36,355 nt of DNA from Minisyncoccota bacterium (GTDB taxonomy: Bacteria > Patescibacteriota > Minisyncoccia > Phycocordibacterales > UBA1006): NCBI GenBank assembly GCA_021734445.1, contig JAIPIY010000006.1:1-36355 (forward strand). The letters run 5' to 3'. Each line of letters begins with the position of its first letter. Positions within the stretch are counted from its first letter, which is position 1. Under the pieces are notes generated by a model. The model did no database searches, was not told the DNA's origin, and was given only the letters and a program-made list of their open reading frames with translations. Positions 300 to 36,355 of the stretch are shown here, piece after piece. The translations under genes were made by a program, and so were the position numbers.

Positions 300-430
300 T
301 TTCGGACAGAAAAGATGAAACGGTTGTTGGCATTCCACTTGTTGTCGGGATTACCCCAGTAGTCGTTCAGTTCCAGCCCACCGCCATCGGCACTCAGGTT
401 GAACAACCTTGGCTTGCCAGCGGTAGAATT
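300..430 (-). repeat. DGR template repeat (TR)
   Basis: This 131-base segment aligns without gaps to 759-889. All 19 mismatches fall on adenines of this copy when read on the minus strand (13 A to G, 4 A to T, 2 A to C); the other 112 positions, including 15 of its 34 adenines, are identical. Read in the VR frame it would encode a lectin-fold C-terminus with AAY/AAG-type codons at the variable positions (N, N, Y, N, D, N, K, N, N, N), but it lies in no gene here. Such adenine-rich codons allow many amino acids without creating stops. It should be transcribed as a template RNA and reverse transcribed into the target gene. Confidence 0.93.
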
Positions 431-754
431 GTGCAAGATGCCATCTGTGACACCATCCTTTCAGTGTAATATTACAAAGAAATAGATTGAATAGTATGTG
501 GTATATACAATACGCCAGTACCTCGCACCAAGTATCTTCATTTTTTATGAAGTGTCTACATACACCACGCTATATGAAATAGTAATCGCATATATTCTGA
601 ATGTATGGATACTGGATTCGGGAGCATACAACCTTGATCGTACACATATTCCCCTACTACCAACCACAGTATACAAGATTATACATTGCTGTAAAACAAA
701 CAAAGGTCAAAGTTCAAAGTGGCCAAAAAGTATTAAGTGATAAATTCCAAAGCA
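431..754. other. Gene-free spacer between TR and target gene
   Basis: I see no convincing gene here; the short open frames have no recognisable protein and odd composition. It should hold the promoter of the template RNA. Minus-strand candidates are TATAAT at 678-683 (a TTGACC at 705-710 is 21 bases away, too far) and TATACT at 668-673 with a weak -35. Either would give a template RNA leader of about 230 bases. There is a cluster of imperfect CTTTG repeats around 695-725 just past the target gene. Confidence 0.4.
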
Positions 755-2884
755 CTACTTGCGGACAGAAAAGACGAAACGGTCGTCGGCATCCCACATG
801 ATGCCGGGACTACCCCAGCAGTCGCCCAGTACCAGCCCACCGCCATCGGCACTCAGGCGGAACAACCTTGGCCCGCCAGCGGCAGAAATTGGCTTCATGT
901 GCATGATTCTCCATGAAGTATCCGTATCGGAAAGTCTTTTTGTTGGAGCAAAATCATGCGGAACAACATCAAGTCCGTATTCTTTTGCGCGGTCTTGTAT
1001 TCGTTGGTATGTTACACTATTTGGGAAACCAAGATCTGCGACTGATACGGTGACACTGGTAATTTCTGTCCCAGCAGGAGATGTTTCAAATTCAGATGAA
1101 TTAAGCATTTCTTTTGTATTGCCCCATAATTTTAGATCATTATCCGTAAGCAGGTTTGCAAGCTCGGAACCTGTTTTGCCTCCGATGGTTATTTTTTCTT
1201 TTCGGATAATGCCTTCAGGAAAACTTGTTGCAATATGTTCTAATTGTGACAGTTTGAAAATATCTTTGAAAAGTGGTCCAACATAAACTTTAGTGTTTTC
1301 ATGCACTTGCTGTGGAGTACACGCAAGTTGATCAGGTGTGCAATCAAATACCGCATATATGTCTTGTTCTGTATTTCGCTTTTCTCTGACTTCTTTAACT
1401 CGAGGATCTGGATCATAACCAAAGCTTTCGACCTTGCGATCAATTTCATACAAAAACATTAATTCATTTTTGCTTAGTTGTGGATCAAGATATGCTTTTT
1501 CTTTTGTTTCTTTGTCTACACGAAATGATTTTGCATATATTTCGGTCATGAGTCGCATATCATGATCTGCTCGTTCGTATTTTTCTGCACCAGGCAGGTC
1601 TTGGTATTGTTCTTTTGCAATATCTATCAATTCTGGTTCAAGTTCTTGACGAGTGTTTACCCCGCGGATTTCCCCGATTTTGCCATCTTCCATACGAATA
1701 GCAACCCGTGGTTCAGTATTGATACCGTCTTTGTTTTTTGTGTAATAGACATAGAAATCCCCATTTTCAATTTGTCCTTTTGCTGAACCTTCGGCGGTAC
1801 ACCAACCTGTTCCTTTTCCTTGAAGCGATTTCTCAAGGACTGTATAGTCGCTTCCTTGGTCATATTTTACCCATTCACCTTCGATAGATTCACGATTCAG
1901 CGCACCTGCGGTTTCCACTTGCGCAAAGGCATACAGTTTAGCGAAATCTGTTGTATGAAGCCTCTGCTCAAATTCTTTTTCCAGGTCTTGTTTTCGAGAT
2001 TCTTCCAACGGGTATTCATTGATGAAATTATGAGTCAATTCATTTTTATGTGTTTGCAGGTATTCACTTCGTCTTTTATTACGAAGATTTTTTAATGCAC
2101 CTTGGCGGGCAAGTTCAAAGAATTCTGGTTTTGCTTTTTCTTTTATTTTTTGTTCGGTTTCTGGGTCGAGAGTTGTGTCTTTTATAATATTATCTTCTAC
2201 ATCTTGTGGAATAGTTACGGCATCAATGTTCATTTGTAATTCCAAAGATTTTCGTACGAATCCAAGTGATTCTGAATTTAATTCCGGAAATGGAGCAATG
2301 GTATCCGTGGTTCGTGCAGAATACGAGGGACCTTTGATGATAATAGGATTACCGTCTTTGTCTATATCATTTGTTTTAACATCGTGTCGATTAAATTGCC
2401 CCATTTCTTTGAGACCACGTACGGTGTAATATTTAAACCACATAGGATAGTCATCTGACGTACGCAAATAATGTAACCATGATGACAAGGTTTGTTTTTG
2501 AATTTCGTATTTTTCTTTGATTGCGTTTTGATATTTTTCTAGAATTTCTGTATCAGAAAGGTTCATGTTTTCAACTGCTGATCCGTGACCACGCTCGATG
2601 GCAATTCTTTTTTCTGATTCATACAAATCTTTGGCAAGTTTCACGACTAATTCTTTGTCATGCATATCAAGTACAAAATCTCTCATGATCATCTTTTCTA
2701 GCAAATCCGCACCGGTTTTCCCGCCAGGTCGTTCTGTGTTCATAACACGCTCGATACGATCAAGATATGCTTGCACAGGCGAAACACCCTCTTTTGTTTC
2801 AAGAGTTTGAGCGCGAGAGACTTCTTTACTGCCTCCAAGAGTTTGATATTTATTATGAAGAAATTCTGGACCACCTATATTCAT
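755..2884 (-). CDS. DGR target (variable) protein with C-terminal C-type-lectin-like domain
   Basis: The protein has 709 residues and no signal peptide or membrane segment. Residues 1-345 are largely charged and helical. Around 359-410 there is a conserved-looking core with Trp361-Cys362 ('TGWCTAEGSAKG') and a beta-rich stretch ('GDFYVYYTKNKDG', 'PRVAIRMEDGKIGEIRG'). It faintly recalls the WC-containing core of PcfJ-like proteins, but I cannot name the family. Residues ~604-709 match the CLec fold of DGR targets: 'LGFPNSVTYQRIQDRAKEYGL', then 'RLFRLSADGGGL', then a 'RFVFSVRK' ending. The last ~44 residues are encoded by the VR. It lies 15 bases after nth on the same strand. A -10-like TATACT (2894-2899) sits 9 bases before the ATG. 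The ligand is unknown; the lack of export signals suggests a cytoplasmic target, or export by an unseen route. Confidence 0.88.
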   Translation of the reverse strand: MNIGGPEFLHNKYQTLGGSKEVSRAQTLETKEGVSPVQAYLDRIERVMNTERPGGKTGADLLEKMIMRDFVLDMHDKELVVKLAKDLYESEKRIAIERGHGSAVENMNLSDTEILEKYQNAIKEKYEIQKQTLSSWLHYLRTSDDYPMWFKYYTVRGLKEMGQFNRHDVKTNDIDKDGNPIIIKGPSYSARTTDTIAPFPELNSESLGFVRKSLELQMNIDAVTIPQDVEDNIIKDTTLDPETEQKIKEKAKPEFFELARQGALKNLRNKRRSEYLQTHKNELTHNFINEYPLEESRKQDLEKEFEQRLHTTDFAKLYAFAQVETAGALNRESIEGEWVKYDQGSDYTVLEKSLQGKGTGWCTAEGSAKGQIENGDFYVYYTKNKDGINTEPRVAIRMEDGKIGEIRGVNTRQELEPELIDIAKEQYQDLPGAEKYERADHDMRLMTEIYAKSFRVDKETKEKAYLDPQLSKNELMFLYEIDRKVESFGYDPDPRVKEVREKRNTEQDIYAVFDCTPDQLACTPQQVHENTKVYVGPLFKDIFKLSQLEHIATSFPEGIIRKEKITIGGKTGSELANLLTDNDLKLWGNTKEMLNSSEFETSPAGTEITSVTVSVADLGFPNSVTYQRIQDRAKEYGLDVVPHDFAPTKRLSDTDTSWRIMHMKPISAAGGPRLFRLSADGGGLVLGDCWGSPGIMWDADDRFVFSVRK
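759..889 (-). repeat. DGR variable repeat (VR)
   Basis: This is the mutated copy of the TR at 300-430, forming the 3' end of the target gene up to its stop codon (755-757). Thirteen amino acids differ from the TR-encoded version: K to G, N to R, E to V, N to G, Y to C, N to S, D to G, N to I, K to M, three N to D, and I to V. Conserved scaffold residues (LSADGGG, W, P, RF, FSVR) are untouched. No long GC-only homing-initiation stretch separates the last variable base from the stop. The repeat pair is clearly more G+C rich than its surroundings. Confidence 0.93.
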
Positions 2885-2899
2885 ATATTGTATAGTATA

Positions 2900-3562
2900 T
2901 CACACCCTAAAAATCTCTCCAGCGGGTGGGTATATTTTTATCAAAGGATCTTTCGATGTGTCATATTTCCGCGCTGGCGCTATTTGGCGACCATATTGAA
3001 TCATGAGATTTGAAACAAGAAACCAGTCTTTTTTATCAAATAATTGCATTAAATCTTTTTCAATTTTCTCAGGAGTTTTTTCATCAGTCAAATTATAACG
3101 AAAGGCAAAACGTTTAACATGTGTATCAACGGCAATTCCCTCTGTTTTACCAAATGCATTTCCTAATACCACATTAGCTGTTTTGCGCGCGACGCCTGGC
3201 AACGTAATTAATTCCTGCATCGTCTCTGGAATAACGCTATTAAATTCTGTGATTACTATATTTGCTGCAGCAATAATATTTTTTGTCTTTGCGCGAAAGA
3301 AATTTATTGATGCAATATCTTGTTCAAAATCTTGTTGCGATACCTGGGCGTAATCAGTAATCTTTTTATATTTTTTAAATAGCTTCTCGGTCACTATATT
3401 TACCCTCTTGTCGGTACATTGTGCAGATAAAATAACCGCAACCAACAATTCCCATGGATTTTTCCAATGGGTCAATTCCGTCAGTGCGTGTTCCTGTTTG
3501 GGAAATAGTTTTTTTAATGCACGAAAAAGATCCCGCGCACGTTTTTTGCGAACTTCATACAT
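2900..3562 (-). CDS. nth: Endonuclease III (base-excision repair DNA glycosylase/AP lyase), cluster-less form
   Basis: Nth removes oxidised pyrimidines from DNA and nicks the abasic site. The frame opens at 3583 (227 residues, 17-base overlap with rsmE); an ATG at 3562 (220 residues) avoids the overlap and is preferred. In 227-residue numbering, the helix-hairpin-helix is at 128-141 ('LPGVARKTANVVLG') with catalytic Lys134, and the catalytic Asp153 lies in 'VDTHVKR'. The N-terminal 'ILSAQCTD' is typical. The C-terminus, where most homologues carry four cysteines for a [4Fe-4S] cluster, reads 'GRQIAPARKYD' and has no cysteine, so the cluster is absent. Last gene of the trhO-nth operon. Confidence 0.93.
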   Translation of the reverse strand: MYEVRKKRARDLFRALKKLFPKQEHALTELTHWKNPWELLVAVILSAQCTDKRVNIVTEKLFKKYKKITDYAQVSQQDFEQDIASINFFRAKTKNIIAAANIVITEFNSVIPETMQELITLPGVARKTANVVLGNAFGKTEGIAVDTHVKRFAFRYNLTDEKTPEKIEKDLMQLFDKKDWFLVSNLMIQYGRQIAPARKYDTSKDPLIKIYPPAGEIFRV

Positions 3563-36089: not shown

Positions 36090-36355
36090 TCATATTTTCT
36101 CTATATTTTTGAGAAACCCCCGCACTTTCTTTGATAACTCATAAGCGTTCCCATGACTTAACATCCCCAAATACGATTGCACGGTTTCATCTTTTTCAGC
36201 CGAGTTTACTTTTTTTATCATTCTCCTCTTTGTGCTTATCCGTAATACCCGATGAGACGAAAAATGTACCCAACCGAGGAAATCCACACCCGAAGAATAT
36301 GTTTTGATAAAAACTTTGTCGGGATGTAATTCTAATCGCAATTTTTCTTTTAGGA
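36090..36355 (-). CDS. Reverse transcriptase, C-terminal part (truncated by window edge)
   Basis: The frame is open to the window end, so only the last ~88 residues are seen. They carry the thumb-side part of a retron/DGR-type RT: 'LRLELHPDKVFIKTYSSGVD', 'FLGWVHFSSHRVLRISTKRR' and 'ETVQSYLGMLSHGNAYELSK'. The catalytic YxDD region lies outside. This style occurs in DGR RTs and related chromosomal RTs of CPR bacteria. It stops 30 bases before the upstream region of rplU, with no hairpin of note after it. It may belong to a second retroelement, or supply the enzyme for the DGR at the left end, 35 kb away. Confidence 0.82.
   Translation of the reverse strand, partial: LKEKLRLELHPDKVFIKTYSSGVDFLGWVHFSSHRVLRISTKRRMIKKVNSAEKDETVQSYLGMLSHGNAYELSKKVRGFLKNIEKI

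Follow-up and report, generated by a model that had tools for sequence, protein, structure and literature searches.

A diversity-generating retroelement of a Minisyncoccota bacterium with a predicted free-standing template RNA and a structured 5' leader

The window analyzed here is the entire contig C1 (36,355 nt; JAIPIY010000006.1, assembly GCA_021734445.1) of a Minisyncoccota bacterium. Its left end carries what is, judged by its sequence, a diversity-generating retroelement (DGR) of the Patescibacteria type, with a template repeat (TR), a variable repeat (VR) that forms the 3' end of a target gene, a partial Avd gene and, between the two repeats, a stretch that encodes a structured leader RNA. 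A fragment of a reverse transcriptase (RT) gene lies at the right end. The features are as follows.

1-260, plus: 3' part of the Avd gene, truncated at the start of the contig and on the strand opposite to TR and RT (PF22296 E 2.5e-5, NF033474 E 4.1e-7)
267-287, minus: intrinsic terminator, a 9-bp stem followed by TTTTGTTT, directly 3' of the TR; predicted 3' end of the template RNA
288-296, minus: a2 segment TCTTCATTT, just 3' of the TR; predicted to pair with a1 around the template
300-430, minus: TR, from its repeat alignment with the VR
428-535, minus: 3' domain of the leader (model R1), from covariation and a covariance model
517-528 paired with 431-442, minus: 12-bp helix of the leader, from covariation
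532-660, minus: 5' domain of the leader, with two hairpins that carry GRYYACGGYTT-like loops, from covariation
535-543, minus: leader segment a1, AAATGAAGA, immediately 5' of the 12-bp helix, from its complementarity to a2
668-695, minus: promoter-like site TTTACA-16-TATACT, 7-8 nt ahead of the predicted start of the RNA (~660)
690-758, minus: 3' flank of the VR with CYTDG pentamers, from a pentamer count
755-2884, minus: DGR target gene, 709 aa, from the open reading frame and a family search
758-1204, minus: C-type-lectin-like domain of the target (residues 561-709), from predicted structure and a structure search
759-889, minus: VR, 3' end of the target gene, from alignment with the TR and the target reading frame
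36090-36355, minus: last 87 codons of a second DGR-type RT gene, which continues beyond the contig; the encoded C-terminus is 59% identical to residues 245-322 of the RT on contig C6

The two repeats align over 131 bases without a gap, and identity drops to background on either side of each. Read on the minus strand, all 19 mismatches fall at adenines of the TR, which has 34 of them (13 A to G, 4 A to T and 2 A to C), and none falls at the 97 non-adenine positions. This confinement to adenines (hypergeometric p = 5e-14) rules out chance or ordinary divergence of the repeats. A preliminary description of this DNA had reported the same two copies and the same adenine-only counts, and realignment reproduced them exactly; the 459 bases that it placed between the copies are correct as their start-to-start spacing but not as the gap between them. 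In the target frame the TR adenines occupy codon positions 1, 2 and 3 in the numbers 15, 16 and 3, and 18 of the 19 changes affect one of the first two positions. The VR extends into the final codons of the target gene. A genome-wide sequence search found no further copy of this TR except its own VR, and no second VR for it elsewhere in the genome.

The flank of the VR has a feature of its own. CYTDG pentamers number on average 3.9 in the 80 nt 3' of the VR, counted over the window and 67 other loci, versus 0.6 in shuffled sequence; the 80 nt 3' of the TR hold 0.4 in the same comparison. The CYTDG-rich flank may be a target-site feature.

The target belongs to a family of proteins of ~600-700 aa, present in 40 of the 247 genomes of the order, and no known domain was matched in the 709-aa protein by searches of Pfam, NCBIfam, PHROGs or PDB sequences. 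The C-terminal domain is predicted with a pLDDT of about 91, and a structure search with it returned C-type lectin domains at nearly all ranks, with weak scores (Foldseek E 0.035, Z ~4.5-6). The lectin-like fold suggested earlier for this gene agrees with the predicted structure for the last ~150 residues, at the weak scores just given. Roux et al. 2021 (PMC8144416) describe CPR DGR targets of clade 2 as typically lacking other recognised domains, and a lectin-like end without a recognised domain in the window target agrees with that account. Residues 333-432 (1589-1888), which include the conserved GTGWCTA motif of the family, have a predicted fold resembling GNAT acetyltransferases (Z up to 6.8); that assignment was dropped as too weak.

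The host genome, from the Patescibacteria, comprises 672 kb in 11 contigs and is about 90% complete. It carries three DGRs, and the one on contig C6 is complete, with an RT, its own Avd, a TR and a VR. The C6 RT, with the DGR-type motifs LGNLTSQ and YADD, is the only RT that a family search of the genome returned, and the complete Avd of this cassette exceeds the Pfam cut-off. In named genomes, relatives of the RT come from Nomurabacteria, Zambryskibacteria and other Patescibacteria. The RT and avd genes of the C6 cassette stand head to head with overlapping starts (L001:2309-2316), so that the RT would have to be expressed from inside the antisense avd or by read-through. At the window, the Avd-type neighbour gene noticed earlier is confirmed on the contig-edge fragment by the family matches listed above. 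The preliminary description had also proposed looking left of base 1 for an RT gene; the RTs that the genome does show are the complete DGR-type RT on C6 and the RT C-terminus at 36090-36355. Its assignment of the element to the DGRs is therefore borne out by the TR/VR pattern, the Avd neighbour, the lectin-like target end and the DGR-type RT in the genome. The RT fragment in the window, the two further DGRs of the genome and the structured RNA between VR and TR lay outside that description.

The RT of the window cassette itself is absent from the assembly, save perhaps for the C-terminal fragment at the opposite end of the contig. Contig C4 starts with the same Avd fragment as C1, and the first 139 bases of the two contigs are identical; beyond these bases, each runs into its own TR, VR and target. 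Identity between the two is 95% in Avd, 64% in the leader RNA and 57% in the TR. Because the contig starts share these 139 bases, the missing RT looks like an assembly effect: two near-identical RT-Avd stretches were probably collapsed in the assembly, and the short contig that they share was left unbinned. The RT fragment at the right end of C1 may continue into the start of C4 or back into the start of C1. The absence of the RT could also be taken to mean that the window DGR is decayed and inactive and that its TR/VR differences are the trace of past homing, and a decayed DGR with this kind of leader RNA does exist in a genome without an RT (locus L149). We regard decay of the window DGR as unlikely, however, since the target frame and the remaining avd frame are open, the frame of the RT C-terminus is open through to its stop, all non-adenine positions of TR and VR are still identical, and the shared contig starts make the gap resemble an assembly effect.

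The order of the locus is constant in about 40 relatives: target with VR, about 330 nt, TR, antisense avd and RT. In most of the Patescibacteria DGRs examined, the interval between VR and TR encodes a structured RNA of ~230 nt on the RT strand, behind a promoter-like site, and the last helix of this leader ends 0-6 nt from the template. In the window, the 12-bp helix closes with a pair at 431, right against the edge of the TR at 430; smaller helices make up the rest of the 3' domain. Alignment of this domain from 35 loci gave 94.4% of cells paired and a covariation of 0.863, versus 0.311+-0.018 in shuffled alignments, with none of 500 shuffles as high and at most 0.24 when the structure was slid by 1-3 columns. 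Cells with both sides changed numbered 231 versus 73. The 5' domain, aligned from 22 loci, had a covariation of 0.700 versus 0.285+-0.017 shuffled, with double changes in 24 of its 29 pairs.

A further pairing would join the leader to the far side of the template. Own a1/a2 partners had a duplex energy of -6.35 kcal/mol, versus -4.82+-0.25 kcal/mol for swapped partners, and 0 of 10,000 swaps reached the value of the own partners; this test ignores the relatedness of the loci. In the fixed register 72% of positions were paired, versus 44-60% for slides and 64+-1.5% for shuffled sequence. Both stretches are A/T-rich, and the gain in stability over swapped partners is modest; a helix of a1 and a2 closing around the template is supported but not proven. 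The ends of the RNA can also be predicted. A TANNNT element lies at the matching distance 5' of the predicted RNA start in many relatives, and nearly all of them carry an intrinsic terminator ~15 nt beyond the TR; the stretch past the terminator encodes Avd on the opposite strand. The template RNA is accordingly predicted to be a minus-strand transcript of about 400 nt.

The covariance model R1, built on the 3' domain of the leader, gave strong matches in its own genome at the leaders of the three TRs and no other strong match. It matched in 93 of 286 genomes of the class and in 72 of 380 genomes of the phylum. Thirty-eight loci were checked, the best 30 of the class search and eight further ones from the phylum search; 37 proved to be DGRs and one a DGR remnant. 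In 25 of the best 30 class loci a TR, found independently as one half of an adenine-specific TR/VR pair, begins 0-6 nt past the last paired base of the model, and an RT and/or Avd adjoins in 28, the remaining two running to a contig edge. Of the five among these 30 that failed the strict TR/VR filter, three show the repeat when simply aligned, one is interrupted by the end of its contig, and the fifth is L108. The latter locus (1501-3097) has the RNA, a TR-like stretch, Avd and RT with no VR nearby, and its template possibly acts on a distant target. Among the eight phylum loci were seven DGRs and the remnant, L149 (745-1620), which consists of a target, a VR, the leader RNA and a TR reduced to about its first 15 nt.

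Loci chosen by their RT protein gave a similar picture, with the RNA at 16 of 17 from Patescibacteria, although most of the 17 also entered the model building and are not independent of it. One of the two archaeal loci chosen in the same way has a weak R1 match just 5' of its TR; this is a Nanoarchaeota DGR (L046:5791-5883), and the match hints at CPR-DPANN exchange or an old origin. BPP-1 and five other viral DGR loci gave no R1 match.

The window element is very probably a Patescibacteria-type DGR with a free-standing template RNA, whose two-domain 5' leader would hold RT-Avd at the template and set the end of the cDNA. The leader would fold into its two domains and keep RT and Avd at the template, and the a1/a2 helix, by joining both template ends, would lead cDNA synthesis to begin at the 3' end of the TR. 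The RT would copy the TR, erring at adenines, and would halt at the 12-bp helix of the leader, which adjoins the 5' edge of the TR. The cDNA would finally replace the VR, rewriting the ligand-binding face of the target. Binding, priming and homing are steps that we infer. We also lean, with less assurance, towards a broader proposal: that Patescibacteria DGRs, possibly with some DPANN archaeal ones, have an undescribed, self-contained template RNA in which the ~230-nt 5' domain, in place of the 3' spacer, acts as scaffold for RT-Avd and fixes where the cDNA ends, and in which the helix of leader and TR flank makes a retron-like loop.

A different arrangement can be drawn from phage BPP-1, where the spacer between TR and RT recruits bRT-Avd (PMC12875486) and measures 144 bases. 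By this precedent the RT-recruiting spacer of the window DGR would be canonical, lying 3' of the TR, antisense to avd and transcribed through the terminator, while the leader would serve another purpose, such as control of the level of the RT or of the template RNA. Such an arrangement seems quite improbable, because nearly all loci have an intrinsic terminator ~15 nt past the TR, avd occupies the opposite strand of the sequence that follows, the strong RNA covariation sits 5' of the TR, and a general regulator would have no need of a helix ending 0-6 nt from the TR. That the RNA is a riboswitch, a small RNA or a 3' UTR element of the target gene, directly downstream of which it lies, and merely adjoins the TR, is scarcely credible given the promoter-like site that precedes it in the window and many relatives, the hairpins and T-runs that close the target unit in many loci, the 37 DGRs and one DGR remnant among the 38 checked model matches, and the beginning of the TR at the RNA 3' edge across differing target genes.

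The structured leader RNA of Patescibacteria DGRs looks new. Rfam 15 gave no match to it, either for the window at E up to 5 or for five relatives at the gathering score, and no earlier description of such a 5' template RNA was found in the literature searched, although Paul 2017 and Wu 2018 may mention one. The DGR itself is of a known kind; what appears new is the architecture of the template RNA, with a possible earlier mention in CPR-DGR papers or a large DGR survey. To our knowledge, template recognition by DGR RTs is known mainly from one phage system, and a covarying RNA that borders the template across the phylum presents a testable second solution to that problem. R1 lets DGRs be found through RNA rather than protein, and such compact template RNAs are candidates for trials of targeted mutagenesis in laboratory strains. 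Furthermore, the presence of three DGRs in a genome of 0.67 Mb suggests that it is important for these reduced, probably host-dependent cells to diversify their lectin-like proteins.

The DGR of Bordetella phage BPP-1 shares with the window element an adenine-specific TR/VR pair, an RT, an Avd and a VR at the 3' end of the target (PMC12875486). In BPP-1, the spacer 3' of the TR both brings in RT-Avd and primes the cDNA, whose synthesis is ended by a motif lying within avd, 5' of the TR (PMC12875486). A BPP-1-like architecture, with an RT-binding spacer 3' of the TR and avd 5' of it, was not found at the window DGR: avd in BPP-1 is on the same strand as the TR, whereas here it is antisense and between TR and RT, and in place of the structured spacer of BPP-1 there is a structured leader 5' of the TR and a terminator directly 3' of it. 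The Patescibacteria DGRs of "clade 2" (Roux et al. 2021, PMC8144416), to which the window element is likened by host phylum, are likewise cellular and have targets without recognised domains; a structured RNA 5' of the TR, present here, is not described in the accessible part of that paper. Unlike in retrons, the RT here goes with Avd and a TR/VR pair, and the likeness to them is architectural only. By analogy with the msr-msd RNA of retrons, the RNA of the DGR would stand alone as a transcript, with its template preceded by a structured domain and enclosed by segments that pair with each other.
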